In this document: piece after piece, positions 9,297 through 60,840 of the stretch
How the letters are laid out: every line of letters begins with the position of its first letter
Position numbering within the stretch: position 1 is the first letter of the stretch
From: Halichondria panicea
Taxonomy: Eukaryota; Porifera; Demospongiae; Suberitida; Halichondriidae
DNA: 64,000 nt
Assembly (NCBI RefSeq): GCF_963675165.1
Contig: NC_087377.1
Coordinates: 8,387,122 to 8,451,121, forward strand
Direction of reading: 5' to 3'
Notes under the pieces: model-generated
The model's input: only the letters and a program-made list of their open reading frames with translations
What the model was told of the DNA's origin: nothing
Database searches by the model: none
Made by a program: the position numbers and the translations under genes

Positions 9297-9574
9297 TGTG
9301 GCGTACTCCTAGTAGCCACTAACCACAAACACTCAATCTGTGGTCAAGTTGAACTATGTGCTGACTAGAAATATCTTAGTTGTTCTAGAGTATTCTTACA
9401 CTAAGCAATTCTGGACTATTCTATGTATTGTTCTGGTTTGTTCTAGAACTGTTTTTGTTTTGTATTTAAAACAGTTCAGTTTTGTGTCTAAGTTGTGTTA
9501 TTCGTGCGTGTTCTTTATTGTTCAAGACAGCTATTAAAAGTCAATTCTCCTATAGTCAAGAGTACTACGTTACA
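9297..9574 (+). repeat. 5' LTR
   Basis: Starts TGTGGCGTAC and ends ACGTTACA, so it has the TG...CA ends typical of LTRs. It contains a TATA-like TATTTAAAA near 9461. A 65-codon ORF inside is repeated exactly in the other LTR and is not a gene. Confidence 0.95.
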
Positions 9575-9576
9575 GT

Positions 9577-9596
9577 TGGTGGCAGCGGTGGGATTC
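9577..9596 (+). promoter_or_regulatory. Primer-binding site, tRNA-Leu
   Basis: TGGTGGCAGCGGTGGGATTC begins two bases after the LTR. It is the exact complement of the 3' end of a eukaryotic tRNA-Leu (acceptor ...CCGCTGCCA plus the added CCA and part of the T arm). This tRNA would prime minus-strand DNA synthesis. Confidence 0.85.
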
Positions 9597-9669
9597 TCAA
9601 TTGTCCTGACTCTACTCGACAAGCCCGAGATAGCCGTGTGAAAGACTTTAGTGTGACTGGTACTGGCAT

Positions 9670-12600
9670 ATGACTGAGCAAGGTGGGAGTAGGACAAGAG
9701 CTGGGACAGTATTTAGAACCACGATGGAAGAAGAACACCAAGATGTGCAGACGAATGGAGGGGGAGGGTTCGAAGCCCAGGTTAATCCCCAAGCAATGTT
9801 AATGATGCTCCAGGAGCAGCAGAGGATGATGGCGGAGCAGCATCAAGCTCAGCAAAGAGTTCTGCTAGAGATGTTACAAACTCAGCAGGAAGAGCAGCGT
9901 GCCTATCGCCAGGAGATGGAGGAGCTGCGACATCAAGAAGCTGTGAGGCACCGTGAAGAGACAAGGCATAAATTGCCTAAGCCTGTTTTCAAGAAATTAG
10001 AAGAGACTGACGATATCGAGAACTTTTTGGAGACATTTGAGCGGGTTGCCACCCAACATGATTGGCCGGAGAATGCGTGGGCTGTCCAGCTGGCGGGACT
10101 GTTAACCGGTAGAGCACAAGCTGCCTATGCTGCTCTAGATGCTACAGAAGCCCAGGATTACAAGAAAGTGAAGGAGGCAATCTTGCATCGGTATGACGTC
10201 AACCAAGAAACACATCGCAGAAGATTCAGGGAAGACCGGAAGAAGCCAGAAGAATCTTACAGAGAGTGGCTATGGCGCATCACAAACCACTTTGACAAGT
10301 GGTGCAAAGACTCAACAATGCCAATGAAGGAGCTTGTTGTCATGGAGCAGGCTCTCTGGGGAATGCCCGAAGGTCTAACTGTCTGGCTGAGAGAGAGACA
10401 GCCAAAGTCATTGGAGGAGCTGGCGAAACTTGCAGAGGACTACACTCTGGCCAGGAAGGGTAAAGACCAGCCCTTTGGTACAAGGAAGCCCCTATCCTCT
10501 CCAGGGACACCAGCCGTGGAAACTCAGGAAACAAGAGCACCACATAAAAGGAATGGATTTCGTACAGAGCCAAGAACCAAGGTCAATGCTGCCGGAGAAA
10601 AGCAATGCTTTCATTGTCACCAGTGGGGTCATCTAAAGTACAATTGCCCCAAGCGAAGCCTGTCACAAGGGAAAGCTGACTCCAAGCCTGCCTTCAATGG
10701 AAAAGCTTGTGAAGATGTGGCCTGGCCGAAAGGAACTGAGAAGTACCTCAAGTGGGGGAAAGTTGGAGGAAAATCTGTTCAGATGCTTTTGGACTCTGGA
10801 TGCAGTCGAACGATGGTGAGTGCCAACAGTGTGGATTCTTCCAAGATCAGTAAGGCAGAAACGGTGGCTGTTTTGTGCGTGCATGGAGATACGGTAGAGT
10901 ATCCTACAGCAATGGTAGAGATCGCTTTAGGAGGCTATACCAGGAAAGCAAACGTTGCTGTTGCCCCTAGCCTACCGGTACCAGTGCTCCTTGGAAGAGA
11001 CCTCTACGATATCAGAAGTGGATGGAAGTCTTCAGATACCGGATACATGGTGGAGACTAGGTCTCAAAAGAAGATACGAGAATCGAAATCGATGGATGAT
11101 CTGATGGATCTGGACGAACAAGCCGTATTGTCAGAGCTATTTGATCAATCGTTGGAGCTAGAAGTTCCAGAGGCAAACCTTGCCTCTGAAGAGCATGAAA
11201 ATCTTAGGAGGGAGGACATGGCAGAAAATACCTCTACGTTAGAAGAGGAGATGAATACAGAACCAGTGTCCCCCTTAGATGCTTCGAAAGAACAAATTCA
11301 AGCATGGCAGGAAAGCGACGCAACGCTAGTAAAAGTTTGTGATTATGCAAGTTTCCAACCCGAAGATGGAACCGAAGGAGAGAATGTTTTCTTCTATAGG
11401 AAGGATGGACTGCTGTATCGTCACTGGCAACCGAGAAAACGAGGAAAAGACGGAGTGCAGGCAGTCGAGCAGTTGGTGCTACCGACTCAGTGCCGACAAC
11501 TGGTATTACGACTGGCGCATGATGTGCCTACAGCTGGCCATCTAGGCGTCACTAAAACCCGAAACCGAGTACTCCAGAGATACTATTGGCCTGGTGTTTT
11601 CAAGGAGGTAACGGAGTATTGTACTACCTGTGAAGTTTGTCAAAGAAGTCGTGGAAGGAGGCCAGCTCGTGCTCCTCTGGTCTCAATGCCATTGATTCAG
11701 AAGCCTTTTTCAAGGATAGCAATGGATATTGTTGGGCCACTGCCAAGGACGCAACGAGGGAATCGGTATATCCTTACTATCTGTGACTATGCCACTCGAT
11801 ACCCAGAGGCAATTCCATTGCCAAGTGTGGAAGCTACACGTGTTGCACGAGAGCTACTTTTGCTCTTTACTCGAGTTGGAGTTCCTGAGGAGGTGCTGTC
11901 TGACCAAGGAACTAACTTTATGTCTTCATTGCTAGACGAGATGTACCAGGCTCTGCAGATCACCAGGATCCGAACAACTCCATACCACCCTCAAACCGAC
12001 GGGCTGGTGGAGCGTTTTAACGCAACTTTGAAGTCAATGCTTCGGAAGTTTACGAGCCGGAACCAGAAAGATTGGGACGAGTACCTTCCATATCTGCTCT
12101 TTTCTTATAGAGAAGTCCCACAGGAGAGCACTGGATTCTCACCGTTTGAGCTGTTGTACGGGCATAGAGTGCGAGGACCACTCGACGTAATACGAGAGGG
12201 ATGGACAGAGGAGAGGTCACCAGAGTTCCCAGTAATTGCTCATGTGGTCCAGATGCGAGATCGCTTGGAAGAAATGATGGAGATTGTGCAGGAGACTACA
12301 AGCAAAGCCCAGCAAAAGCAGAAGAGGTACTATGACAAGGGTACCAAAAAACGAGAGCTGAAGGCCGGTGATCAAGTCTTGGTTTTGCTACCCAAAGATG
12401 AGAATAAGCTCAAGTTGGAATGGGTTGGTCCCTATAAAGTACTTCGTGCTGTTACTCCAGTGGACTATGAAGTAGCCACACCAGGGCGGAGGCAGAAGAA
12501 GAAGATATACCACATCAACCTCTTGAAGCTGTGGAAGTGTCCAACGCAACCAGTCCCAAATCTGATGTCGATAATGGAGGAAGGGAACGAGTGTGACGAG

Positions 12601-14088
12601 GAAGAGTTGACCAACCTGAGTTTGTGGGAACCTGAAGAGACACTGTTCGATGTGACCGAGATCCAAACCCCTGGCTTAAATCCAGAAGAGCGAAAGCAAC
12701 TGTTGTCACTGGTGCAAGAGTTTGACGCAGTGTGTGGTCCAGCCCCGGGAAGGACAACGATTGCAGAGCACGAGATATTTGTGGCGGACGAGACTCCAAT
12801 ACAACAGAGACCCTACCGTGTACCTTACTCAAGGAGGGAGGTAGTGAAAGAAGAGATCCACAAGATGCTGGAAGCCGATGTCATTCGACCTTCTACCAGT
12901 CCATGGGCTTCACCTATTGTAATGGTTGGCAAGAAAGACGGATCTGTGCGGTTTTGTGTGGATTATAGAAAGCTTAACAAAGTGGCTCGCTTTGACGCTT
13001 ATCCTATGCCACGCATTGAGGAGCTACTTGACAACATTGGACCTGCTAGATACATCACCACCATGGACTTAGCGAAAGGTTATTGGCAAATACCCCTTGA
13101 GGAATCTTCTAAAGAGAAGTCAGCTTTTACAACACCGTTTGGCCTGTACGAGTTTCAAGTGATGCCTTTCGGGTTGCACAATGCTCCAGCCACTTTCCAG
13201 AGGACAATGAATCGAGTGCTGGAAGGATGCGAAGAATTTGCAGGTTGCTATATCGATGATCTGGTTGTGTACAGCAAATCCTGGGAAGAGCACCTACAAC
13301 ACTTGCAGGTGGTGTTAGAACGTCTGCAAGCTGCCAAGTTGACCCTGAAACCGAGAAAATGTCAGTTTGGACGACGGGAAGTTCGTTATTTGGGACATGT
13401 GATTGGTGGTGGCAAAGTTAGGCCCGATCCACAGAAGCTGCAAGCAGTAGCAGAGTATCCGCGTCCACAGACCAAGAAAGATGTACGAGCTTTCCTTGGA
13501 CTAGTAGGATACTACCGGAAATTCACCCCCAACTTTGCGGATATTGCAGTGCCGTTAACGGACCTCACTCGAAAGAAGAAACCAGAAAAGGTTATCTGGA
13601 CCGGTGAATGTGATCAGTCTTTCATAGCTTTGAAGGAGACTCTGTTGAAGCATCCTGTCTTAGAGGTATTCGATCCAAACAAACAGTTTCTGTTACAAAC
13701 TGATGCATCAGAACGAGGCCTTGGGGCGGTTTTGAGTCAGCGAGATTCGGAAGGACAAGAAAACCCAATCGCATTTGCAAGTCGGAAGTTGCAGCCGAGG
13801 GAAAGGAATTACGCAACAATAGAAAAGGAGTGCTTGGCGGTTGTGTGGGCTCTTAAGATCTTCTATACATACCTTTATGGTCGGAAAATTGAAGTACAGA
13901 CGGACCACCAACCTCTCGCCTGGTTACACAAGATGCAGAACGCGAATGCCCGATTGACGCGTTGGGCGCTGGCTATTCAGCCCTATCAACTGGAAATCAC
14001 CCATCGTCGAGGAGTTTCGAATGGCAATGCTGATGGACTGTCACGAGCTGGCCCCCTTTTAGGAGGGAGGGATGTGGCGTACTCCTAG
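9670..14088 (+). CDS. Gag-protease-integrase-reverse transcriptase-RNase H polyprotein
   Basis: A single 1472-codon ORF from ATG 9670; an alternative ATG lies at 9724. Residues 1-300 are Gag, with a Gln/Met/Glu-rich coiled coil near 35-95. A CCHC zinc knuckle (CFHCHQWGHLKYNC) lies at 313-326. The protease DSG is at 375-377 (LLDSGCSRT). The integrase HHCC zinc region is near 610-660; its catalytic triad is D686 (AMDIVG), D745 (SDQGTN) and E781 (LVERFN), spacing DD35E, followed by a GPY/F module (WVGPYKVL) near 917. Reverse transcriptase spans about 1055-1240, with YIDD at 1194-1197. RNase H begins at D1345 (QTDASERG) and ends with THRRGVSNGNADGLSR. Integrase before reverse transcriptase is the key oddity. 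Gag and Pol share one frame with no frameshift or stop between them. The stop lies 16 bp inside the 3' LTR. Confidence 0.95.
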   Translation: MTEQGGSRTRAGTVFRTTMEEEHQDVQTNGGGGFEAQVNPQAMLMMLQEQQRMMAEQHQAQQRVLLEMLQTQQEEQRAYRQEMEELRHQEAVRHREETRHKLPKPVFKKLEETDDIENFLETFERVATQHDWPENAWAVQLAGLLTGRAQAAYAALDATEAQDYKKVKEAILHRYDVNQETHRRRFREDRKKPEESYREWLWRITNHFDKWCKDSTMPMKELVVMEQALWGMPEGLTVWLRERQPKSLEELAKLAEDYTLARKGKDQPFGTRKPLSSPGTPAVETQETRAPHKRNGFRTEPRTKVNAAGEKQCFHCHQWGHLKYNCPKRSLSQGKADSKPAFNGKACEDVAWPKGTEKYLKWGKVGGKSVQMLLDSGCSRTMVSANSVDSSKISKAETVAVLCVHGDTVEYPTAMVEIALGGYTRKANVAVAPSLPVPVLLGRDLYDIRSGWKSSDTGYMVETRSQKKIRESKSMDDLMDLDEQAVLSELFDQSLELEVPEANLASEEHENLRREDMAENTSTLEEEMNTEPVSPLDASKEQIQAWQESDATLVKVCDYASFQPEDGTEGENVFFYRKDGLLYRHWQPRKRGKDGVQAVEQLVLPTQCRQLVLRLAHDVPTAGHLGVTKTRNRVLQRYYWPGVFKEVTEYCTTCEVCQRSRGRRPARAPLVSMPLIQKPFSRIAMDIVGPLPRTQRGNRYILTICDYATRYPEAIPLPSVEATRVARELLLLFTRVGVPEEVLSDQGTNFMSSLLDEMYQALQITRIRTTPYHPQTDGLVERFNATLKSMLRKFTSRNQKDWDEYLPYLLFSYREVPQESTGFSPFELLYGHRVRGPLDVIREGWTEERSPEFPVIAHVVQMRDRLEEMMEIVQETTSKAQQKQKRYYDKGTKKRELKAGDQVLVLLPKDENKLKLEWVGPYKVLRAVTPVDYEVATPGRRQKKKIYHINLLKLWKCPTQPVPNLMSIMEEGNECDEEELTNLSLWEPEETLFDVTEIQTPGLNPEERKQLLSLVQEFDAVCGPAPGRTTIAEHEIFVADETPIQQRPYRVPYSRREVVKEEIHKMLEADVIRPSTSPWASPIVMVGKKDGSVRFCVDYRKLNKVARFDAYPMPRIEELLDNIGPARYITTMDLAKGYWQIPLEESSKEKSAFTTPFGLYEFQVMPFGLHNAPATFQRTMNRVLEGCEEFAGCYIDDLVVYSKSWEEHLQHLQVVLERLQAAKLTLKPRKCQFGRREVRYLGHVIGGGKVRPDPQKLQAVAEYPRPQTKKDVRAFLGLVGYYRKFTPNFADIAVPLTDLTRKKKPEKVIWTGECDQSFIALKETLLKHPVLEVFDPNKQFLLQTDASERGLGAVLSQRDSEGQENPIAFASRKLQPRERNYATIEKECLAVVWALKIFYTYLYGRKIEVQTDHQPLAWLHKMQNANARLTRWALAIQPYQLEITHRRGVSNGNADGLSRAGPLLGGRDVAYS
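14060..14072 (+). promoter_or_regulatory. Polypurine tract
   Basis: AGGAGGGAGGGA lies directly before the 3' LTR and would prime plus-strand synthesis. It overlaps the last codons of the pol ORF. Confidence 0.85.
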
Positions 14089-14350
14089 TAGCCACTAACC
14101 ACAAACACTCAATCTGTGGTCAAGTTGAACTATGTGCTGACTAGAAATATCTTAGTTGTTCTAGAGTATTCTTACACTAAGCAATTCTGGACTATTCTAT
14201 GTATTGTTCTGGTTTGTTCTAGAACTGTTTTTGTTTTGTATTTAAAACAGTTCAGTTTTGTGTCTAAGTTGTGTTATTCGTGCGTGTTCTTTATTGTTCA
14301 AGACAGCTATTAAAAGTCAATTCTCCTATAGTCAAGAGTACTACGTTACA
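14073..14350 (+). repeat. 3' LTR
   Basis: Same 278-bp sequence as 9297-9574; I found no difference by eye. The pol stop codon (14086-14088) lies inside it. The target duplication GGCTG follows at 14351-14355. Confidence 0.95.
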
Positions 14351-14355
14351 GGCTG

Positions 14356-37856: not shown

Positions 37857-39729
37857 GTGTCGATAACTCTGAGAGCGAATCTCCTGCTAAGAGAAGAAAA
37901 GAAGGTAACTTATCTGCAACCTCGTGGGAATCAATTGCCACTTTATCGCACATCCCGTCTGGAAATACAAGTATCCATTTCGATGACTTGGAAATGGATG
38001 GTACTCAAAGTTCTTGTCAGCTACAAGACTCAGTGTTTAACACATCTCTGACGGAAATTGAAGGATCGAATACTGCACACTCACAGGCCACTGTTACTCC
38101 TCCTTTAAACACTCAAAGTTCAAGAAGTGTTTCACAAGTAGATCTACTTAGCTCAACCTGCTGTGAGCACCGTTGCCTTGCCTCTTTTAGTCTTTTAGAA
38201 ATAGAAAGTTGGCAAAAAACATTTCGAAACAGAAACAAAGTGGAACAGAAGCAGTTCCTCCTAGATACTGTTAACTTTTCAGTTGCTAAAGGAAGCAAAT
38301 CCATCCAGTACAAACTCTCACTATCGGGGAAGCAAGTTTGTAAGTATGCTTATTTAAAAGTGTTCGAAATTTCCGAGAAAAAACTAAGAAATGTAGCTAC
38401 TCTTTTGAAACAAGATATTACGCTATCACAGCCGCAGGTTAAACGGCAGAGGCCAAAGTCCGATAAGTACACGACTGCTGCTGCTTGGATGGAACGATAT
38501 TTTAGCCGCATCGGTGATAAAATGCCTCACATCCAGCAGACTCACCTGCCACACTTCATGTCTAGAAAGATGGTGTATGAGCTGATGGTTCAAGATCTCA
38601 TTGATCAGGGTGTCTGCAAACCAGATATAATTTCAAGCTCTCATTTTTATGCTCTGTGGAAGGATAAATTCCGATACTGTATCATCCCAAAGGTATATAC
38701 TTTATGTTGCAAGGGTTGTATTAGCAGTATACAGCATGCATGATAATTATATAAACGATATATATATAACAGACATGTGATTGCCAATTATGCATGTGTA
38801 TAATTGTTTTCAGAGTAGCCTATTCAGTAAGTGTGACATCTGTGTGAGGTTTGCTAGCGAGAGACTGAAGGTTGTAGGTGATAAGAGCAGGCGTGAGCAG
38901 TTATCAACGGAATACAAACAGCATCTGGATTTAGTCGAGTATGCATGTCATTTGTGGATAAATTATAAAATGCATAAAATAAATTATGTATATAAAATAA
39001 TGCACATGCATTTTTGTGTTTTAACAGATCTGAGCGTCGCAAGTACTATCACCATCGTGAGAAGTCTAGAAGCGAGCCCACAAAGTACGTGACTGCATGT
39101 TATGATTGATGGCATGGACCAGAATAAAACCAACGTCCCTCATATCACTCAGCAGACCAAGTCAAGCCAGAATCTGTGACGGTTACGCACTCACCTTACA
39201 GGAGCATTGATTCATACCAAGTCAGAGAAAGGAAAATTGGCATTTGCTTTTTTTGACTTGCTCCAGTGGCCTCACGACTCAAACTTAACGATAACAGTCC
39301 TCACCTCAATTTTAACCCAGCTCCAAAGCAAACTAGGCACAATTCCTCCTATTTTATATCTTCAGCTGGATAACACTGCTCGTGAGAACAAAAACAAGTA
39401 CGTGTTTTCATTTTTGGCACTTCTCGTTCTACTGAAGATATTCAGGAAGGTAAACATGACTGTATATGCATGCACACTGTAATAAGTATATACTTACAGT
39501 GATTATAATTCTATCTTTCATACTTGCATGCATGTTGCAGATTCGTGTCAATTTTCTACCAGTGGGTCACACTCATGAAGATGTGGATCAGTTTTTCTCC
39601 AAAATATCAGCACACTTATCTCGTGTGGGTGCAGAAACCATTTTCATAGGAATTCTAAAGTCTATATATAAAAAAATGTTCCCATTAATTGCTTACTTGA
39701 GACTTTACAAAAAGAAGAGTCATAGCTGA
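37857..39729 (+). pseudogene. DUF7869-type gene with RNase H/DDE-like core (5' part)
   Basis: Exon A (37857-38692, acceptor GGGGCAG, donor AAG|GTATAT) has the family's CCEHRCLASF Cys-rich start and a region ending with a WMERYFSRIGDKMPHI stretch. Exon B is 38814-38938. Exon C/D is 39028-39449, with ERRKYYHHREKS, then after a frameshift near 39102 IDGMDQNKTNVPH, LRTHLTGALIHTK and LQLDNTARENKNKYV. Exon E starts at 39541 with FLPVGHTHEDVDQFFSKIS. The three acidic blocks (DGMDQ, LDNT, HEDVDQ) suggest an RNase H-like transposase fold; the family's activity is not established to my knowledge. A TGA at 39177-39179 replaces the usual Trp in NLWRLRTHL. With the frameshift, this copy is probably not functional. 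The likely last exon is at 43794. Confidence 0.55.
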
Positions 39730-48699: not shown

Positions 48700-50300
48700 T
48701 CCAATTAATTTGAGAAAGGAAATAATGAGGAAAATAAAAATGTTCCTTATGATCGTAGTTGTCGATTGGCTGTTCGAGTTTTACCGAGCAGGGATCACAG
48801 TGCAACTCCACGCAATCAAAGTAGTGAAACTACAATTATAGGCAGGGTTAAACGACAAAAATGTCAGACGGATCGATAGGAATGAAGTATCAGAGATAAT
48901 AAAGACGGTTTGCCAGCATACTGCTGATATAATTATAGCTGTATTTCAAACCTTTGGAAATTCTGTACCCGAATTCACGCTATACCTATAATCGAGGAAT
49001 CCTTGGCGAGTTTTAATATATCCTTTTTGTTCCGCCTCCGGTCCTGTGGCATAATTAATAGCCGTGTAGTAGAGCCATCACTGTGAGTATATATAATAAT
49101 CATACATGGCGATAATTATACTCCAGCTAAATGTCGTAAAAAGAAAGCAACTCTTCAGATGCTATGCATTGAAGAGATTGATGGTGAAATTGGCAATTTG
49201 ATCAGTTGGCTGGTAAACTGTATAATTATATACATGCATGTGCGGGCAGGGCAGTAGGCCTTCACACAATTTGTTTGTTAGAAAGTAGGTGCTCTTGATG
49301 GGTACGACAAAAAACGTACAAACGAGAATGAAAACCCTACTATTTCTTTTCTGAGCATGCAGGATTCAAACAACTGGCTGCTATGAGACCGAGTGTGAAA
49401 TGATTGCATGTATAATTATACAGGCACGAGCCTGAGGTCGAGGGGGTACATATAAAATGCCGTAAAAAAATCATGCAGGGAAAGTCCGCTATTTTGAATG
49501 GAAAATTAATATTCTAATTGGACTGCTAACAAAAAAGTTATATAGGTCTGGCTATAAGAATGGTGCAACCACATGAATGTGCTACAGAGATTTTCAGGTC
49601 AGTTGTCAATGTGCTATCATGATCATTTAAACTTGTTGCTCACCAAAGGAATGTTTCAAATCTGCATGTAAAGTTAGTAATGTTCGTTCAAGTGATAGTG
49701 AGCAATATTATGTACCCTAATCAAGGATAAGGTCAATCCAATTCAAAACCAGCAAAACAAATCCAACGGCTGGAATAGTTCTTGCAACACCTTTAACGGG
49801 TCGGCAAGTATACAAGGAGTAAGTACCGCCACTGATCCGGAAGATTCTCTTGAAGGCATGTATAAGCAGAGGAAATATAACAAGGACAGCGCAAAAAACG
49901 TTGACTTTACGAAATATGTATAGTGGTAGGTATAGGTGGCATCCTGCGCAGCAGCGCGCGAAAATATAGTTGCAGACATCTTCTCAGGGCTTCTCTGTTG
50001 AACAAGCTCACTCTCAGCTATACTACTGCATAAACACTTTATTACATCATTTCCGGTGGGTGCGGTATCAATGTGACATTTGTATTAGGTGTGGTTTGCA
50101 TTGTAGAATTAAGTTTTTGCACTCTATATAACTCGACTCGACTTCTAGCTCGCAGCGACTGTCGACCTAACAATTGCTGACACTAACCTAAACTACTGCC
50201 TCTTCATCATTTCAAACTATTTTATTAATTTATTATTATTTTCGTTGTACAATTGTTGGAGATACTAAAAAAGTCAAGCTTTTAAATGACACTATATTCA
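48700..50300. other. Mostly non-coding flank of the virus-like block
   Basis: Apart from the weak SAM-like segment near 49.13-49.20 kb I see no supported gene. I looked for inverted terminal repeats shared with 56.8-57.3 kb and found none. Confidence 0.4.
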
Positions 50301-50328
50301 TAATTTAATCGTTTATCGTGAGAACCCA

Positions 50329-50478
50329 CACAGACAAAGAGTATCCTTGGAATCTCAGGAGCAGACTCGTTGGTGGTCGAACAGACGAAGAGTATCCTCG
50401 GAATCTCGGGAGCAGACTCGTTGGTGGCCGAACAGACAAAGAACATCTTCGAAATCTCGGGAGCAGACTCGTCGGTGT
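50329..50478. repeat. 51-bp tandem repeat, nearly three units
   Basis: The unit starts ACTCGTTGGTGGTCGAACAG and has period 51, so both strands stay open over three units. The plus frame gives a 17-residue repeat (RTDEEYPRNLGSRLVGG). It is a minisatellite lying about 450 bp before the virus-like block. Coding use is unproven. Confidence 0.8.
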
Positions 50479-50930
50479 GGACAATCTCCAGGCAAGATGT
50501 TTAATACAGAGATCTTGGATTCGGAAGACAGAAAAGGTATACCGCCGATACATAGCCAACCTTGAGACCTTCCGAGAGAGTCAATTTGAAGAACAAGACA
50601 GTAATCATAATTATTCCAAAACCCTGATGCAGACCACTGTCACTGTCGAATTCTAGATTTATACATATCCAAATACCACAAAAGGCTAAGGCCAAAGATT
50701 TGCAGAACATCAGACTGGACCTTTCGTGTACTGACACAGAATTGCTCCTCTAACTCAATATGTTTCCGTCGAACATGAGAACCTCTCAAAATTAATGTTA
50801 TTCAAACAGGATTCAAAAATGAAATTGTTCAGTCTCACTCAAGTGAATTAAGGACTGGGTCCTTCAATTATTGCTGATTCAGTGAAAACGAAGCTCCGCC
50901 CACGCTTTTTACCAGCAATTGTGCATAAAA

Positions 50931-53185
50931 ATGGATCTCAAACTGCTTAAATCTTTAGCTCTAATTCCGGAGTCCTAAACGCTCCTTGAAGCACTTACTT
51001 TTTAGTGTAGTAGTTAGTTCTAAGGCTAGTACACACATCGTGAGTGAACCTAGGTGGTTTATGATATTGAAATGCCTCAATGATAGTGCACATGCAAGTA
51101 TCCGGCTTGTAAACGTAATGGCATACGATGGATCCACTTTGCAACTTGGTGGTAGTGACCATGAATTGAATCCCATTTTACTGTCTGTTGTTGCTTCAAC
51201 AAACATTGTGTCATACTCGAGATACGCTAGCAACTGTGGCATTTGTTTTGAACTCTTGTTTCACACAATTAGAGAAGATACAAACAACCCCTTTGACTTT
51301 TCTTACTTTATGACCAAGATTGCCGATTGGAAAAGAATACAAGAGTTCAAATCAGATGCTCAAAGTCACAGTCACACATTAACAATTTCAATTCAAGAGA
51401 CTGAACTGTTGTCAGACATTTTAATATTAGCAAGGAGTTTTGAAGTAGCAGACATGTTGAAATTTGTGTCCATACATAGAATAGCACCACTTTAATGTTT
51501 TTTGTTGTTTACAGGTTACAAAGAACATATTTGTTGATGGAAAGTACGTCCCAACAGATTTGATTGGATTGTTTGAATTCATGTGTGCAAACTCTGAACT
51601 GTTGTCAACCTCTGACATATGCTACATGCTGCATGCTAACCAGAAAGTGCTCAAAGAATTCAAATTGAGGCAGGTCAATGGGCTCTGGTCTTGTTGCCAG
51701 CAACCCACTTGCAGGTTTTCAGAGGTGTGGAACAGGCTGAACAGCTCCTCTGGCAAGTCGATTACAGATGTGAAGTTCAGTGCAAACTGCAGGCCTTTCA
51801 ATGTTGTGAAGTCCAGCATGGCATGGGACACTGTGAGTCCAAAAAATGTCAAAAAAAACATAGTTCAAGTGCATTCCTACATGCCTGTGCTGGTCTCTAG
51901 AATGGCCATTACCCCCAAGTGCGATTGCCCCAACCCAACACTGGACTGTGCCGACTGCACAACTGTCTACACAAATGGGGACACTTTGAAAAGGTTCATG
52001 AGAACTAGGCAGGCCTGCATTGAGCATATACAGTCGCAATCCGAGCTCACAACAGAGGACTTCCTGGTCCTGTCGTCCTATTGCATGGTACCCTCCTCTG
52101 GCAAAGTTCAACCTCAGCAATTTCGAGAACAAATCTCCCAGGAGACATATGTTTACAATCACGTGTTCAACGAGAACTTTACTGGGGTTATAAACAACCT
52201 AATGCTTTGCTATTTTGGGTTTTACAAAGGCTTTGACATTGCACCAAGCGAGATGCTCAAGAAAATACTGTTCTACTGCATGAGGTGCCAATACATTAGG
52301 TCTAACAAGTTTAAGACCAGGCAGCACTTGGTGGCAAAAGACACCACCACTGTTGACACCATGCTTAGCAACCTGTTCATACTCAACAGCAAGTCCTCAA
52401 TTTTGAGGGAGAAGGTCAGACAGCAGTACATGCACTACACTGTGAACTCTGATGAGTACACCTACGAAGTTGCAGAGATACTGAGTGACACATTCAGGTC
52501 CACCAACAGCAGGCTCTCAGACAATGTCTACTTCTGCAGCATCTTCCACAAATTCAAAAAATGCACCGACCAAACATACAGACACATTCTACTGAACTGT
52601 GCCCCCTCCAGAGACAAACTGAAACACAACAGGTGCATAACATACATGGAGCTATCAAAGGATGGAACAGAGGAGACGCTATACACCGTGACTCCAGAGC
52701 TGTTCAACTACAGAAATGCTTCAACTGCAATGAGCTATTATCTGAAGCTTGCTGACTTTTTCAAGTTGACTACGAGGCTTAAGAGGAAGATGGGTGTGTC
52801 CTTTGGAAAGAAGGACAAAAACAAAGTGTATGTGGAGCCAACCTTTGACAATCTCACAGAAGCTGAGCTGTTTTGGCTGAGGCAACCTCACTCTGTCAAG
52901 AGTTGTGACAACCTCAGAACACTAAAAGACACACATGCAGTGACAATCTTCCCAGCAGATCTAGTTGAGAGCAGTGAGCCCATGGAGCAGGATGATGAAG
53001 ATGACACAGACCTGCTTGCTAAAATTTTGAGTGGGCTCTCTGAACTCGAGCAGATGCAGGTTGCAACCCAACCAGCCCCTCCCCCTGAAATATTTGAAGT
53101 CCAACAGCTGACCAACAGTGACATAACTGAGAAATATGACATGATTAGACAATCTGTAATTAAAGCACTTCAACTGAGACAATAA
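50931..53185 (+). CDS. Virus-like block, gene A: large protein of unknown function
   Basis: The body runs from about 51006 to TAA 53183-53185. It has two parts in different frames, joined in phase 0 by a plausible 49-nt GT-AG intron (51466-51514, acceptor TTGTTTACAG). The upstream start is less clear: ATG 50931 opens a helical stretch (MDLKLLKSLALIPES) that meets a TAA at 50976, so the N-terminus is either damaged or spliced in an unusual way. Visible features are Cys-rich pairs near the N-terminal third (WSCCQQPTC, and CDCPNPTLDCADC about 120 codons into the second part), a long helical middle with FRSTNSRLSD, a basic stretch (TTRLKRKMGVSFGKKDKNK) and an acidic C-terminal region (EPMEQDDEDDTD). 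The Cys pairs may bind zinc. I cannot assign a family; a replication or structural role is equally possible. Confidence 0.55.
51466..51514 (+). other. Predicted 49-nt intron in gene A
   Basis: Starts GTGTCCATAC and ends TTGTTTACAG. Both flanking frames end and begin exactly at codon borders (phase 0), and the first frame would otherwise stop at TAA 51493-51495. A one-base indel is the alternative explanation. Confidence 0.5.
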
Positions 53186-53239
53186 TAATATATTTTTTTT
53201 TGTATATGGTTCTGTGTTCAAATAATTATCCTTGCACTG

Positions 53240-55852
53240 ATGGCTACACTAGATCAACTTAAGTTGTATGTGCAGAGGAGCAGGGCCACCATCAACAGAG
53301 CTTTGAACAGACTGAGGAACAGTGGTCAATTGCCACAGGTGTTTAGTGGCAGAGGAAGATCTGCTAGGGGAAGAGTACCTAGTCCAGCATCCACAGTGCC
53401 AGAAAAAATAACCGTTTTGAATGCACTGGACACCATCCTCTCCAATAGAAGAACAAGCCAAAAAACTAAAATAGAGAGACTCAGAGCATATATCCTCAGA
53501 GTAAACCAGAGGTCTACCAATGTGGGTGTGCTTGAACTAGTGGCAAATGTGAGTGAACAAATTCACGAAATTACAAGGCCTCCAGCAGAGGAAGAGGAAG
53601 AGGACGAGGATGAAGGTGGAGGTGGTGGTGCTGGAGGTGACAACGACAGCGGTGCAGATGGTGATCGTGGCAGCGATGAAGGGGACGATGGTGGAGGTGG
53701 TGGTGGTGGAGATGAGGACGATGAGGACAATACCATTAGGCTAGACCAGCCCCTGTACTCTGCTCCAAGTCTCTCTGATGCTGTCCCCATAGGTTCTTAC
53801 CACCAACTAGACACTGTTGGGGAAGTGAGCCAAGTTATGTTCAACGGAGGTATAGTGGCAGCATTGCAGTATAACTTGGATGATGTTCTAAATGTATTTG
53901 CTCATGTTTACCCTGCCACAACTCCGCTGGGCTCTGTTTTGTTTACAGGCTACATAACTGGCAATGGCAGGCTGTTTGGGTTTGGAAGATATTACCCCCA
54001 ATCCTTACAAGATGTTCTGGACCAATTGGATAAATATAACATTGGACCAGAGGAGGCTGTTGTGGTCAGAGGCTATTTTCAGGACGGTGGAGGCTTCATA
54101 AGGCAACACCCTCATGGTCCTTTTATGCCGATACATCAACTGCACCTGCAAGACACTGGGGGCATTGGTGGCAGTGTGCACCTCATGACCCACTCTGTTG
54201 ACACACTCTATATGTACAACCCATCCTTTGGAGACTGCTTTAGAAAGTGCCTGCGGTACGTTGGGTTTGACTGTAAAGTGTTGAACCACCCCTCCGTGAA
54301 GTCCACCAGGGAAGAGAACCAATTCATTTGCACTCAGTTAAAATTGACAGTGATGATTGTCTCCATCGAAGGAGTAGATGTCATCCAGTCGAGGAGCCAC
54401 ACTGAACAGATAATTTACATGCTTGCACACAGGATCAAAAGCAGCAACACTCACCACGTGTGTTTGTTGAAGTCTTTGGACTACCTCGAAGTTGCACTTA
54501 TCCCATTCATAGACAGTGTTGAAGACATCAGCGGTGTGTTGTACAGGAGTCCAGAGCTGCTCAACCGGTTTGACTTCAGCCAGTTGGAGGCAGACTGTTC
54601 CACTGGCTCCAAAGACATCATGTCAAACATCTATCGATGCAAGAAATTCTACCTGGAAGACAAAGATCATGGCATGATGATAGATGTATACGTTTTTGAT
54701 AGACATGGTTTCAGGCAGTGCAACAGGATGGACAGTGAGGAGCTGCTTTCCATGATGCCATTCTCTGAGCCAGACACTGTTCACTATTTCCAGACTTGCG
54801 AAGAGCTGGTGATGTATGTCAACTCCGTTCCAAGACAGCTAGTGTATGCGTGCAATTTCAAGCCTGGAGTCAAGTCAGACTGTTTGACTGGTGTCATGCT
54901 AGAGAAGCCGTATAACAGCGCTTGGTTACTGGACACAGACATGGACACATCAAACGTGCAAGAAGTCAACCGTGTGCTTCACACACACTATTGTGAAACA
55001 TTGCAGACACCCCTCTGCATGCTGGAGGCAGAACTAAAACCAGCATATGCTTTCAAGTGTTATGACATCATGACCGCAAACAAGATGTTAATCCTGATAA
55101 GGAGTGCATGTCAAGGAGGACTCAACATGTGCAAATATCCCTCCAAAAAACAGCTGTACAAAAACACACCAGATGGAGTTTTACATCTAGACATAAACAA
55201 TATGTATCCAACTGTCATGGCACAGTCAACAATTTTGTTAGACTACAAGAGTGTGGTGATATTCCATTCAGAGACCACACTCCCCCATGCCAACTACTAC
55301 AAACTATACTTGGTTACCAAGGCTGTCAGTGCGTGTTACACCTACCAGGTTCCCACAATGATGTCAGAAGAGCACATCAAGGCCCTGCATCAGGTCAACT
55401 TCCAACTGTGCGTATCTAACTGTGGACTGGCAATCTCCTACACAAGACACATACCCTACCGATGGTTGGCAGTGTCTACCTATTGTTCGGAGATGAGAGG
55501 GCTGTGTGGGAGGACTCTGCTGAAACAAACCATAAACAAACAGATAGGGAGGTTTGCAAGACTGAAGCAGGTGTCTCTGAAAAACCCTGGCCCATTATTG
55601 ACAATGTTTGAGGACAACCCTAATGCAAGTGTGCAATACACAGACATAACTGGAGCAACTTTTTTACCACAATTTATGTACGTCATGCAAGAAAGTAAAG
55701 CAATGTTCTGGAACCTAATAGCACTCAACAATATTCAACTAACTGACATTTTAGCAATTACAACTGATAGTGTTCATTTAAAAAATTCACAATGTTATAA
55801 TTCATATATTACATCTTCTAAAGTTTGTGGAATGTTTAAAATTGTATGTTAA
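53240..55852 (+). CDS. Virus-like block, gene B: family B DNA polymerase, protein-primed type
   Basis: 870 codons from ATG 53240. Residues 1-60 are basic and helical. Residues about 114-168 are a Glu/Asp/Gly-rich spacer. Near residue 330 is NPSFGDCFRKCLRYVGF, resembling the Cys-containing segment before the catalytic region in plasmid- and Polinton-type polymerases. Polymerase motif A is LDINNMYPT (D651), motif B is LLKQTINKQIGRFA (K762), and motif C is AITTDSVHL (D843); a VCGMFKIV end corresponds to the conserved KxGxWKxE block. Motif C has Thr where most family B enzymes have the first Asp of DTD, but keeps the metal-binding second Asp. I could not find the three exonuclease motifs. The enzyme would replicate a linear genome from a terminal protein. 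The last 190 bp are much richer in AT than the rest. Confidence 0.65.
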   Translation: MATLDQLKLYVQRSRATINRALNRLRNSGQLPQVFSGRGRSARGRVPSPASTVPEKITVLNALDTILSNRRTSQKTKIERLRAYILRVNQRSTNVGVLELVANVSEQIHEITRPPAEEEEEDEDEGGGGGAGGDNDSGADGDRGSDEGDDGGGGGGGDEDDEDNTIRLDQPLYSAPSLSDAVPIGSYHQLDTVGEVSQVMFNGGIVAALQYNLDDVLNVFAHVYPATTPLGSVLFTGYITGNGRLFGFGRYYPQSLQDVLDQLDKYNIGPEEAVVVRGYFQDGGGFIRQHPHGPFMPIHQLHLQDTGGIGGSVHLMTHSVDTLYMYNPSFGDCFRKCLRYVGFDCKVLNHPSVKSTREENQFICTQLKLTVMIVSIEGVDVIQSRSHTEQIIYMLAHRIKSSNTHHVCLLKSLDYLEVALIPFIDSVEDISGVLYRSPELLNRFDFSQLEADCSTGSKDIMSNIYRCKKFYLEDKDHGMMIDVYVFDRHGFRQCNRMDSEELLSMMPFSEPDTVHYFQTCEELVMYVNSVPRQLVYACNFKPGVKSDCLTGVMLEKPYNSAWLLDTDMDTSNVQEVNRVLHTHYCETLQTPLCMLEAELKPAYAFKCYDIMTANKMLILIRSACQGGLNMCKYPSKKQLYKNTPDGVLHLDINNMYPTVMAQSTILLDYKSVVIFHSETTLPHANYYKLYLVTKAVSACYTYQVPTMMSEEHIKALHQVNFQLCVSNCGLAISYTRHIPYRWLAVSTYCSEMRGLCGRTLLKQTINKQIGRFARLKQVSLKNPGPLLTMFEDNPNASVQYTDITGATFLPQFMYVMQESKAMFWNLIALNNIQLTDILAITTDSVHLKNSQCYNSYITSSKVCGMFKIVC

Positions 55853-55858
55853 AATTGT

Positions 55859-56797
55859 TTACTGATGTTGTTGACTAGCTTGTTGTTCAGCCAGCAGTCT
55901 GGTTGCGGTGTCTGGCTTGCTGTTGTAGCCATAGTTGAGTGATTTCATGAACTCACTGCTTGGACCTATCATTTCCAAGTATTCAGCTAAGGCTGATTGC
56001 TTATCTGCTAACAGTTGTGTGTTGCTCTTGCCACTGTTTGTTGGCAGACCTTCTTTTCTAGACCTTTCACCACCAGCACTGCCTCGTAGTAGACCACCTC
56101 TGCTGCCAGGGCCATAAGGACGATAGCCTCCATAGCCTCCATAGCGTCCATAGCCTCCATAGCCTCTGCCATAGCCACCTCCCCTGGATGGACCACCTCC
56201 TCCTCCTCCGCCACCGGCACCTCTGTTGTTACCCTGTTGCATCATTGACATCATGAGCAACATGCCCATGTCACCATTGGAAGCACCACCGGTTAGTACC
56301 TTGGGTTGTTTGGGTTGTGTGGGTTGTACTGTCCTGTTTCCAACTCCAGACACAGTTGGCTGTGCATTGGCTGATCCAGCTATGGTTGACACATTTGGTG
56401 TCAAAGGGTTGGGACCAGCTGGTCCTGGTGTTACAGGATTGGGAGTAGAATTCAGCCTTCTTGCAGCATTTCTTCTGGCTGATGGACCGTTTGGTTGAAA
56501 GGGTCTTGTTCTGAATGGAGTAATGGGTGTGAAAGATCCACCCCTGCCCCTGGCCCTTGCTCTGCCAGAAGGAGACCTGGGTACAAAGCCTCTGTGTCTG
56601 TTCCAGGCAGCTGCATTAGGATCTCTTCTTGGAATTGGTGCACTGCCAGGAACTCTTGGTCCTCTGGGTACATGGGGATTTGATATCTTGCGCTTGGCTC
56701 TTGGCTGGGGTTCAGTACTTGGTCTTTTGCGTCTGATCATACTTGGAGGTAAAGCATCTGGTTGGAAACCAGCACCTCCAGGAGTTGGAGTAGTCAT
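55859..56797 (-). CDS. Virus-like block, gene C: Arg/Gly/Pro-rich basic protein
   Basis: 312 codons on the minus strand from ATG 56795-56797, ending 6 bp from the polymerase stop. The N-terminal 110 residues are rich in Arg and Pro with nuclear-signal-like clusters (IRRKRPS, RAKRKIS) and an RARARGRGG motif. The centre is Pro/Thr-rich. Residues about 190-250 are Gly-rich with YGGYGRYGG repeats. The C-terminus forms a charged helix (LLADKQSALAEYLEMIG). The composition is that of a DNA- or RNA-binding core or nucleoprotein. No named family is recognised; many Gly/Arg-rich host RNA-binding proteins look similar, but the tight packing against the polymerase favours membership in the block. Confidence 0.55.
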   Translation of the reverse strand: MTTPTPGGAGFQPDALPPSMIRRKRPSTEPQPRAKRKISNPHVPRGPRVPGSAPIPRRDPNAAAWNRHRGFVPRSPSGRARARGRGGSFTPITPFRTRPFQPNGPSARRNAARRLNSTPNPVTPGPAGPNPLTPNVSTIAGSANAQPTVSGVGNRTVQPTQPKQPKVLTGGASNGDMGMLLMMSMMQQGNNRGAGGGGGGGGPSRGGGYGRGYGGYGRYGGYGGYRPYGPGSRGGLLRGSAGGERSRKEGLPTNSGKSNTQLLADKQSALAEYLEMIGPSSEFMKSLNYGYNSKPDTATRLLAEQQASQQHQ

Positions 56798-56879
56798 TCT
56801 TGCAGGCCTTTTGTTAGGTGGCGATCTGGTGCCTCGCGGTGGTCTACTGTCTCTGAATTCCTCAGAAGAAGAATAGGAG

Positions 56880-57650
56880 GCACTCCTGTCACTTCTCCCA
56901 AAAAATCAATTACCACTAGTATAGAGTCAGTGGCAGCCACATTGAAATTGCAGGATAACCTACTCCATACACGAGGTAAAAATAGTGAAAAAAAAACTGA
57001 TGATTTGGATGATCCACGCATCAGAGAGCTGTTCATTGTGTTTCAGGCCAAATGAATCGCAGGAGTCTATCTTACTATAATTATACACTACAATATGGAA
57101 CGTTACCCTGTCTCTGCAGGTACATTGGACACATCACATTTACAGAGTGATTATTGTTGACGTTCTAATCAATGTAAACTCAATGTACGTGTATATATCT
57201 AGATACACAATAATATTATAGTGGAACGAAGGAGGGATTGGAAACTCTGTTTGAGCCGCATTTCGGTGACGTAATAAAATTGCAACAGTTGTGCATTGTC
57301 AGCAAAATTGCTGAATGTTCTTGCTCGATTTCTTGGTGATTCTAAGCTGGAAGGTGTATACTCTCTGGAAATAGAACTGAGTCTAAGGCTTATGCTAGAA
57401 AGTTTTAGAAGGATCTTTAACAGCAACAAAGAATGCCAGCGAGCTGTGTTTGCAGGTAGCATAAAATTAATTAATTACTGTGCATAGAATGTGCTGTTGC
57501 ATTTCTATTGAACTTACAGAGAAGTTCTACCTTGTCGAGTGGGAATGCAATGGCTCTGTGACAACAGTACAGAAGAGAGACACATTCAATGTGACAAGTC
57601 AGAGACTGTGGTGTGCAATGAGAACTATACCCAGTGAAGTGTGAGAGAAA
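56880..57650 (+). CDS. Unrecognised exon cluster after the virus-like block
   Basis: Three plus-strand pieces look like exons. The first (about 56880-57053) encodes TPVTSPKKSITTSIESVAAT and ends IRELFIVFQAK with a TGA. The second (about 57296-57455) encodes LNVLARFLGDSKLEGVYSLE, then NSNKECQRAVFA at a GCAG|GTAGCA donor. The third (57521-57647, acceptor CTTACAG) encodes KFYLVEWECNGSVTTVQKRD, followed by a stop after IPSEV. The last pattern (YLVEWE..GSV..V) resembles the small N-terminal module found in BEN-domain and transposon-linked proteins, but this is weak. Whether they form one gene is unknown. Confidence 0.3.
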
Positions 57651-57654
57651 ACTA

Positions 57655-58870
57655 TAGTTCTTGCTATAGGTAAGTATATGTATTGTCGCACCCTTAAGTT
57701 ACCACTCGAAATTGTACCATTTCCAGTCTCGCAAATTATGTTATTTCGTGGCATCTTGCTTGTGATTCTCAAGCTGTTTACTAAAACAAAAAAAGAAAAA
57801 CCTATCTGTTAATATTCTATATGAGTTATAAAGACAGGTGCAATATGCATTCACATACGGTCGGATGACTCTAGTAGCAGTGAATCTAATGTTCAAAAGT
57901 GCTACCGAAGCATCAGCACCCGCGGTGCTTTCATCAATCCATGCTGTAATAAACAACGCAGTGCTATGGCAGCCTGGTTACTAGACTCAGAAGTCGCACG
58001 CACGCACGCAAATAAACAAACAAACAAATAAAAATTATTAACCCCCCTAAAGCCATGCGTGACTTTAAAATATCCTCCATTTTACGATAGTTTTCCACGT
58101 TATTGAACAGTTGAAAAATAGAATTGAATAGCTAGCTATAAAGGCTGTGAGTATTAGCTAGATTCGATGATACGTGTTTAGGGTATTGATTTGCCTTTAG
58201 AATTAGAAAAAAGAAAGCGTCAATTACACACCCCACCAGTAAGTTTTAGTTTGTTTGTGTGTTTAAAGGGGTTGCTCATCCATTCATCCACGCAACAATA
58301 GAACGTAGCACTGGTGTCCTTAATTAATTACAACATGGGGCTACGTCAACACACCAATGTCACTCAGTGTATCCTGCATCTGATATTTTATATTCTAGAC
58401 CTTCAGGGCAAAAGTGAACAGGAAGATCGAAGAGTACGGTTCTGTGGATTGTGGCGTCAGTTTGAAATTAATTTGTGGTAGCGTATAACTAGTATACCAC
58501 AGTCACTGCAGTACACATTCTGGCAAACAGTTACTCCCACATGTCCTGTTAATTATTTTTTCATTCCTGTATAGGTATACAGTACCCATCAATAAAAAGT
58601 TCCCGTTCCATTTTTTAAAACGCACGTTTAAACGATCGCGTAAAAACGCATTTGGAACGGGTGGTTTAGCTCGTTAGTACTAAACGGTAAAAAAAAGAAA
58701 AGAAAACGGAAGCAATTGAAACCGCAAACAAGCTAGCTATAGCAACACTAACAACTAGTTTAGCCCGCGCGTAGCAGAGAGTAGAGTCAATACAACTTGA
58801 AGAGCAAGACGATGGTTTATAACTAGTATACTAAGCACAGGATACTTTGCTATCGTAGATTAGGCTACAG
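57655..58870. other. No supported gene
   Basis: Short microsatellite-like tracts near 57990-58030 (ACGC and AAAC repeats). GTTCCCGTTCC near 58600 and TTTGGAACGG near 58650 and 61096 may be degraded ends of the Tc1-like copies that follow, but the symmetry is too weak to call. Confidence 0.4.
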
Positions 58871-58875
58871 AGCAT

Positions 58876-59500
58876 AATTATATAATCTCAAAGAAACTAC
58901 GGGAGGAGGGGATACAAACAAGCAGGAGAGGAGTATCTAAGATGGTGACTCGTTTTGAGGAAACAGGGACCATTGGAAGAAGAGAGGGCAGCAGTAGGCC
59001 GACCAAAATAACACCAGCAGTGAAAGCAGTTGTAGATGCTCAAATGAGGCTGGATGATGAGACAACAGCTATTCCGCTCTATGCTCTACTGCAGTTGAAA
59101 GGTTTTAACATCAGTCTGGCCACCATTCTTAGAGCAAGGACGGCACTTGGATGGACCTCAGCGTACTGCCAGCTCATTCAAGAGGCCAACAAACTGAAGA
59201 GGCTCGACTGGGCAAAAGCCAATCTAAATACCAACTTTGAGGACGTAATTTGGTCTGATGAGACTTCTATTCAACTAGAATCGCACAGGAGGCACTGCTG
59301 TCGGAAGATAGGAAAAGCACCAAAACCTAAGCCAAGGTTATTAATAGTAGTTTTGTTAATTTGTGTACATATTAAATTACTGCATCTAGACTAACAAATT
59401 AGTGTGTTTTAATTATAATTATTAAAAACATTCACAGAGCAAAACACCCCACAAAGGTTCATGTCTGGGCAGGCATTAGCTGGTGAACAAGTGTCTCAAA
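58876..59500 (+). pseudogene. Tc1/mariner-like transposase, copy 1, with an intron
   Basis: The frame opens about 58876 with KKLREEGIQTSRRGVSKMV (helix-turn-helix), then GTIGRREGSSRPTKIT, GWTSAYCQLIQEANKLKRLD and the first catalytic block VIWSDETSIQLE. The exon ends PKPKP before a GTTATTAATA donor at 59338. After a 99-nt intron, ACATTCACAG at 59436 leads into AKHPTKVHVWAGISW, followed by a stop. The rest of the catalytic domain (second Asp and Glu) is not readable. Copy 2 at 60.3-60.8 kb shows the same gap at the same place, which supports a real intron. Confidence 0.65.
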
Positions 59501-60289: not shown

Positions 60290-60840
60290 GCTGTACAGAT
60301 ATCGCTATAAAGCCTCTACTATCTCCAAGAAAGTTCAGCAAGACGAGGGCATCACTACTAGTAGGCGCGGAGTATCAACATTTCTAAAAACGAGACCGGC
60401 ACAACCAGAAGAAGAGAAGGCTCCGGTAGGCCCACTAAGATCACTGTGTGAGTGAAGCAGATAGACAGACGACGAGACTACAGCCATTCAGCTTTTTGCA
60501 CTCTGTCAACAGAACAGGATAGACATCAGTCTATCTACAATCCTGAGAGCCAGAAGAGTTCTTGGCTGGACATTTAGAGGGTCAGCCTACTGCCAGCTCA
60601 TTATAGAGATGCAAACAAAGTCAAGCGAGTGGATTGGACAAGTGCTAATTTACAGGACGACCAAAGAACGTGTTGCAGGAAGATTGGAGACGCTCCCAGA
60701 CCTAAATCAAAATACATTTGTCTCTGTGCACTACATCTTTATGTCTCCCTATACAGACCCAAACATCCAACGAAGGTACATATCTGGGCTGGGATTAGCT
60801 TGAGAGGGAGAACAGGAAAAAGCCATCTTGGTTTGGTCTA
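60290..60840 (+). pseudogene. Tc1/mariner-like transposase, copy 2, decayed
   Basis: Related to copy 1: YRYKASTISKKVQQDEGITT then SRRGVSTFL and, in other frames, QKSSWLDI, RDANKVKRVDWTSANLQDD, RTCCRKIGDAPRPKSK and, after a gap ending CTATACAG (60749), PKHPTKVHIWAGIS. Multiple frame changes and a loss of the SDET region show it is dead. The gap coincides with the intron of copy 1; its donor has changed to ATACAT. Confidence 0.6.

Follow-up and report, generated by a model that had tools for sequence, protein, structure and literature searches.

A putative right-truncated linear DNA element with a predicted protein-primed polymerase palm in the genome of Halichondria panicea

A block of three long genes, found in a 64,000-nucleotide stretch of the Halichondria panicea genome (the window), is interpreted here, with somewhat more confidence than doubt, as an integrated copy, truncated on the right, of a linear DNA virus or plasmid that is uncatalogued and replicates by a protein-primed polymerase. 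Its middle gene, B, is predicted to code for the palm of a protein-primed family B DNA polymerase (PolB) on the basis of combined profile, alignment and control scores, and comparison with longer relatives indicates that the copy is cut inside the third gene, C. The block comprises the following features:

51485–53185, plus strand: open frame of gene A, 566 codons between stops, with 541 aa counted from the first TTG at 51560
53240–55852, plus strand: gene B (PolB), ORF of 870 aa
55859–56905, minus strand: gene C, frame up to the breakpoint, 5'-truncated; counted from the first ATG, an ORF of 312 aa covers 55859–56797
56903–56907: right breakpoint of this copy, beyond which the longer relatives of gene C no longer match

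Genes A and B are separated by 54 bp (53186–53239); genes B and C converge, with 6 bp between them (55853–55858). The stop-to-stop lengths of 887 (B), 566 (A) and 348 (C) codons are far above those expected by chance, the maximum being 212 codons in 200 first-order Markov simulations of positions 50001–58000. The G+C content of the block is 0.43–0.46, as compared to about 0.40 in most of its surroundings, while a gypsy-type element in the window reaches 0.49. Three long genes with gaps of 54 and 6 bp had been proposed originally, and the coordinates of B and C as well as both gaps were exact, but the start of gene A was misplaced: the ATG at 50931, from which the first gene was supposed to run, runs for only 15 codons before a stop, the long frame being that of 51485–53185. 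Nor is the neighbourhood, which had been described as gene-poor, empty, since the window also carries the gypsy-type element (9297–14351) and, at about 58.9–60.8 kb, pieces that weak matches suggest to be Tc1-like.

The gypsy-type LTR retrotransposon consists of one frame of 1472 aa with protease, integrase, reverse transcriptase and RNase H, and matches a SCAN domain (E 3.4e-14). As its two direct repeats of 279 bp do not differ at any position (100% identity), its insertion was probably recent. The element points to a eukaryotic host. The order of its domains, with the integrase before the reverse transcriptase, is one which we take to recall Gmr1-like elements. The two Tc1-type transposase-like pieces, 58864–59394 and about 60392–60840, are related to each other, a stretch of 53 nt being 72% alike; the former gave weak matches below cut-off to HTH_Tnp_Tc3_2, HTH_32 and PAX, and the scanned frame in the latter gave none. 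An ORF of 251 aa at 37988–38743 has no significant Pfam family. Neither Rfam families, at gathering scores, nor tRNA genes were found in the window.

Whole gene B did not match any Pfam family, and its C-terminal piece matched PF03175 (DNA_pol_B_2) weakly, below the family cut-off (E 0.0087). The same piece was recognized by the phage polymerase profile phrog_1907 with an E-value of 2.5e-5; the corresponding values were 3.5e-4 and 7.8e-3 for its database relatives P0002 and P0003, and 1e-201 and 7.2e-122 for the positive controls, the polymerases of phi29 and PRD1. When the C-terminal part of B together with the two relatives was compared by hhalign with an alignment of eight phage polymerases, local matches were obtained for a QGG motif plus motif A (probability 35%, E 3.9e-4) and for motif B (4%). 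The score was 37.0 in local and 25.3 in global mode (E 8.4e-5), as compared to 27.4 and 9.9, respectively, for the best of 100 column shuffles, and to 10.5 and 8.2 for the reversed alignment. The claim that the middle gene carries family B motifs of the protein-primed type thus held, the hhalign score exceeding those of 100/100 shuffles. The motifs and candidate residues are located as follows:

54236–54238, plus strand: Cys333 (PSFGDCFRKCL), which might be the nucleophile of a vOTU-like protease domain; identical in P0001–P0003
54452–54457, plus strand: His405-His406 (NTHHVCLLKSL), which might provide the catalytic His of that vOTU-like domain; identical in P0001–P0003
55190–55210, plus strand: motif A, DINNMYP, with Asp651 opposite phi29 Asp249
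55523–55549, plus strand: motif B, KQTINKQIG, aligned by hhalign
55757–55771, plus strand: motif C, ITTDS, placed by global alignment only; identical in 3/3 full-length sequences

In motif C of gene B, Thr842 replaces the first Asp of the DTDS sequence, whereas the second, Asp843, is kept and lies opposite phi29 Asp458. The catalytic carboxylates of the phi29 enzyme are Asp249 and Asp458 (PMC4974454). The numbering of the 572-aa phi29 sequence used here is offset by 3 from the published one. The spacings from motif A to B and from B to C are of the same order as those in phi29, and all of the 17 residues checked (Cys333, Cys337, His405-406, QGG and motifs A, B and C) do not vary among the three full-length sequences. 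Several points weigh against our interpretation of the block. The hhalign probabilities are low, the best local match reaching 35%, motif B 4%, and single comparisons roughly 2–3% (3.3% for motif B with phi29, 1.6% for motif A with PRD1); moreover, ITTDS is set opposite DTDS in global mode only. The missing parts of B count against it as well, as does the failure to find, for this copy, integrase, capsid, ATPase or protease families, a Pfam OTU domain or a clear terminal inverted repeat.

About 600 residues precede the palm in B. Residues 1–115 are basic (pI 11.8) and are followed by an acidic, Gly-rich linker (116–165) and an unassigned middle part, the palm being located at the C-terminus. 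The domain order of polinton polymerases is TP-vOTU-EXO-PALM (PMC11071308), and Cys333 and His405-406 sit where a vOTU domain would be expected, a likeness of motif and order only. A Pfam OTU match was not obtained for B, and PDB sequences compared with B, its palm and its middle part gave nothing below E 0.5.

Gene B does not comprise the end of the palm or a thumb. It ends 26–27 residues after motif C in all three full-length sequences (those of the window, P0002 and P0003), and its stop falls opposite approximately residue 485 of phi29 polymerase in the 572-aa sequence used, equivalent to about 488 as published. In a scan with simple patterns, ExoI and ExoII were absent from B, and ExoIII-like matches occurred only at residues 187, 211 and 340. 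P0002 and P0003, which share 90% and 79% identity with B, respectively, are both still open, while neutral simulations, comprising point changes only, yielded frames without any stop in 0/300 runs at 79% and in 2/300 runs at 89% amino-acid identity. This suggests that selection has kept the frame of B open. Because P0002 and P0003 stay open despite the neutral expectation, the odd features of B are not due to decay of a single copy. As judged from its sequence, B may not work as a normal polymerase, being devoid of the palm end, the thumb and a clear exonuclease motif.

Gene C codes for a basic (pI 11.7), Arg/Gly-rich, low-complexity protein that contains no Cys. A basic Arg/Gly gene had been predicted at 55859–56797; ORF and composition are as described, but this gene is incomplete, the frame remaining open past its first ATG up to 56905, and its relatives are longer. 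Residues 201–315 of the relative P0011 match positions 56905–56567, whereas its residues 1–200 do not match anywhere in the window at E<=10. P0010 and P0011 both continue past 56905 and share a conserved stretch there. Since an acceptor AG is lacking exactly at 56905 and the relatives read through that point, we take it to be a breakpoint rather than a splice site, and the sequences thus point to a right-truncated copy, cut inside gene C. It follows that the missing integrase, capsid, ATPase and protease cannot define a lineage, and that the intact element probably had further genes to the right of C. We therefore rejected the view that the genes of the block make up the gene set of the element, gene C being cut at 56905; the earlier step from the same missing genes to a smaller lineage fails for this reason.

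The product of gene A is a Cys-containing protein to which no family was assigned. Positions 51560–53182 gave no Pfam family at E<=1, the longer frame gave no NCBIfam family at E<=10 and from Pfam only BTK at E 1, and PDB sequences gave nothing below E 0.5. A possible 3' splice site (tttacag, read by eye only) ends at 51514, by the start of gene A, and a short intron before gene A might end there. The open stretch 50965–51495 was considered as an exon of gene A and dropped as unsupported: its length of 176 codons is in the range of chance, 177 codons being reached in 10/200 simulations, and its codon usage resembles that of controls, 31 of the 65 control ORFs scoring equally high. The codon-usage test is weak, as gene B, scored by the usage of gene A, reached only 0.025, and gene C 0.027, both below the control maximum of 0.065; gene A scored by the usage of gene B reached 0.101, above every control. 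Directly to the left of the block, 50330–50477 is a tandem array with 2.9 copies of a 51-nt unit.

Relatives were sought among about 5.8 billion proteins at E 1e-3 by a search that detects only relatives sharing short exact words, using residues 180–870 of B as query; relatives of gene C were sought by this protein search only. It returned four matches for B, three for A (P0005–P0007) and, among the 8000 best candidates that were scored, four for C. Both for B and for C, one of the matches is the protein of the window itself; P0005 shares 99.6% identity with A. In their aligned parts, the remaining relatives are 79–95% (B) and 85–88% (A) identical; the relatives of gene C are 98% (P0009), 77% (P0011) and 57% (P0010) identical in the alignment. 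The cluster of B has 13 members on 2 contigs and that of A has 15 on 1 contig; with so few contigs, these numbers do not prove many copies. The longest contig in the cluster of B comprises 532,881 bases, and P0002, P0003, P0007 and P0010 are located on contigs of 21–28 kb. Some relatives are decayed: the frame changes at about residue 622, before motif A, in P0004 and at about residue 310 in P0011, and in P0006 the match begins only at residue 56. Judged by these sequences, the genes occur in several diverged versions, of which some are broken. In another frame inside B, positions 55066–55419 form an open overlap of 117 codons; P0004, a frameshifted version, continues in the corresponding frame.

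Gene B was not matched in IMG/VR (searched with the whole protein, with the protein minus its low-complexity part, and with the alignment), in plasmids or in prokaryote genomes, and its palm piece had no match in phages. Searches of IMG/VR with gene A (whole protein and alignment) likewise gave none; the alignment scans for A and B, with two peptide patterns each, are weak, and the collections searched may leave out records from the genome of the window itself or from one very close to it. A DNA pattern for DINNMYP occurred in three contigs and was dropped as chance, lying in 3/3 cases on the opposite strand of a phage-like ORF. A literature search found no description of this element in titles or the opening lines of abstracts, which is weak evidence, as the search was conducted without organism or accession. 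That the proteins look undescribed nevertheless agrees with the few database relatives and with the outcome of the Pfam scans, in which none of A, B and C matched a family above its cut-off.

Protein-primed polymerases mark deep links among tectiviruses, Polintons, adenoviruses, virophages and linear plasmids. With the polymerases of the phi29/PRD1 type represented by phrog_1907, B shares QGG (for YxGG) and motifs A, B and C in the same order. It differs from them in having about 600 residues before the palm and no clear exonuclease motif, in its missing palm end and thumb, and in the Thr at the first Asp of motif C. The polymerases of Polintons and adintoviruses, compared by described domain order only, resemble B in their long pre-palm region, in which the conserved Cys333 and His405-406 of B would take the place of a vOTU domain. 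An OTU-like domain is a hallmark of adintoviruses (PMC11071296); unlike these groups, the truncated copy shows no OTU, integrase or capsid family, and no thumb. The only rve integrase match among the scanned ORFs was that of the gypsy ORF; genes A, B and C of the truncated copy did not yield an rve match, nor a double jelly-roll capsid, penton, packaging ATPase or Ulp1-type protease family. Among 25 of the 32 inverted-repeat pairs found, eight (I4, I7, I9, I11, I13, I20, I22 and I23) have their arms on either side of the block; these arms of 18–23 nt are 74–94% complementary, and none seems outstanding in a copy that has lost one end of the element. By description, B is also similar to the Mavirus polymerase (TP-vOTU-PALM), which retains only a remnant exonuclease (PMC11071308), in being devoid of clear exonuclease motifs, while this copy differs from Mavirus in showing no SF3 helicase or capsid family. 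Likewise compared by description, Bidnaviridae share the protein-primed PolB on a compact element; they differ from the truncated copy, since an SF3 helicase (NS1) or a parvovirus-type capsid family is absent from A, B and C. Walker A patterns do not occur in A or B.

If the block is the truncated copy of such a virus or plasmid, the element would be copied as linear DNA, with a primer domain fused to B. The part of B that precedes the palm would supply the primer (terminal-protein) function and, as in polinton polymerases, a self-cleaving vOTU-like domain, which would release the primer domain. Gene C might bind or condense DNA, in the virion or in a nucleoprotein complex, and gene A may join the other two in a replication or structural module. 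A relationship of the element to Polintons and adintoviruses is conceivable, its further genes having been lost from this copy; we infer this link from the domain order only.

Other explanations of the block have to be considered. The original prediction saw in it a reduced, capsid-less replicon similar to linear plasmids, whose whole gene set would be about A, B and C. This is unlikely, although its compact order, the narrow gaps, the convergence of B and C and the lack of capsid, ATPase, protease and integrase families in these genes are in its favour, because the copy ends inside gene C, leaving the gene list incomplete, and relatives are located on contigs of 21–28 kb. Somewhat less likely still is a degenerate or domesticated polymerase which no longer copies DNA and is kept by the element or the host, for instance as a terminal or structural protein. 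It would account for a conserved frame that has no palm end, thumb or clear exonuclease motif and in which an Asp of motif C is replaced, and products of bidnavirus PolB were found in virions (PMC4061559 and PMC11071308). However, the equivalents of both catalytic Asp residues of phi29, Asp249 and Asp458, are kept (PMC4974454), the Mavirus polymerase likewise has only a remnant exonuclease (PMC11071308), and the broken or truncated state of P0004, P0006, P0011 and gene C is better explained by a decaying element than by a single host gene that was retained.

We consider it very improbable that the living element has a whole polymerase whose thumb is located elsewhere, on a further exon or a separate protein. 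The final pair of codons in B is GTATGT (55844–55849), a good splice-donor sequence which would be compatible with such a split, but it is not kept in P0002 and P0003, whose C-termini read FKIVH and FKIVVD; the ends of all three sequences lie only a few codons apart, and the stop of gene C lies 6 bp beyond B. That a symbiont or virus contig was misjoined to the assembly is least likely of all. The G+C content of the block, higher than that of most surroundings, would agree with contamination, though that of the gypsy element is higher still; the presence of the 532,881-base contig in the cluster of B, the broken and truncated versions, and the failure to find relatives of B in prokaryote genomes, IMG/VR and plasmids, or of its palm in phages, argue against it. 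A truncated copy of an integrated linear DNA virus or plasmid hence remains our preferred interpretation of the block.

A bolder reading would see in the block an undescribed lineage of integrating, capsid-less linear elements, having a palm-only replicase without thumb and proofreading, with one Asp of motif C lost, and two partner proteins without family. We regard this as doubtful. If it is true and B copies DNA, the thumb would be dispensable or supplied by a partner such as gene A. A conserved family that stops right after motif C would provide a natural test of which parts of a polymerase are needed, and the block illustrates how easily a truncated integrated copy may be mistaken for a complete small genome.
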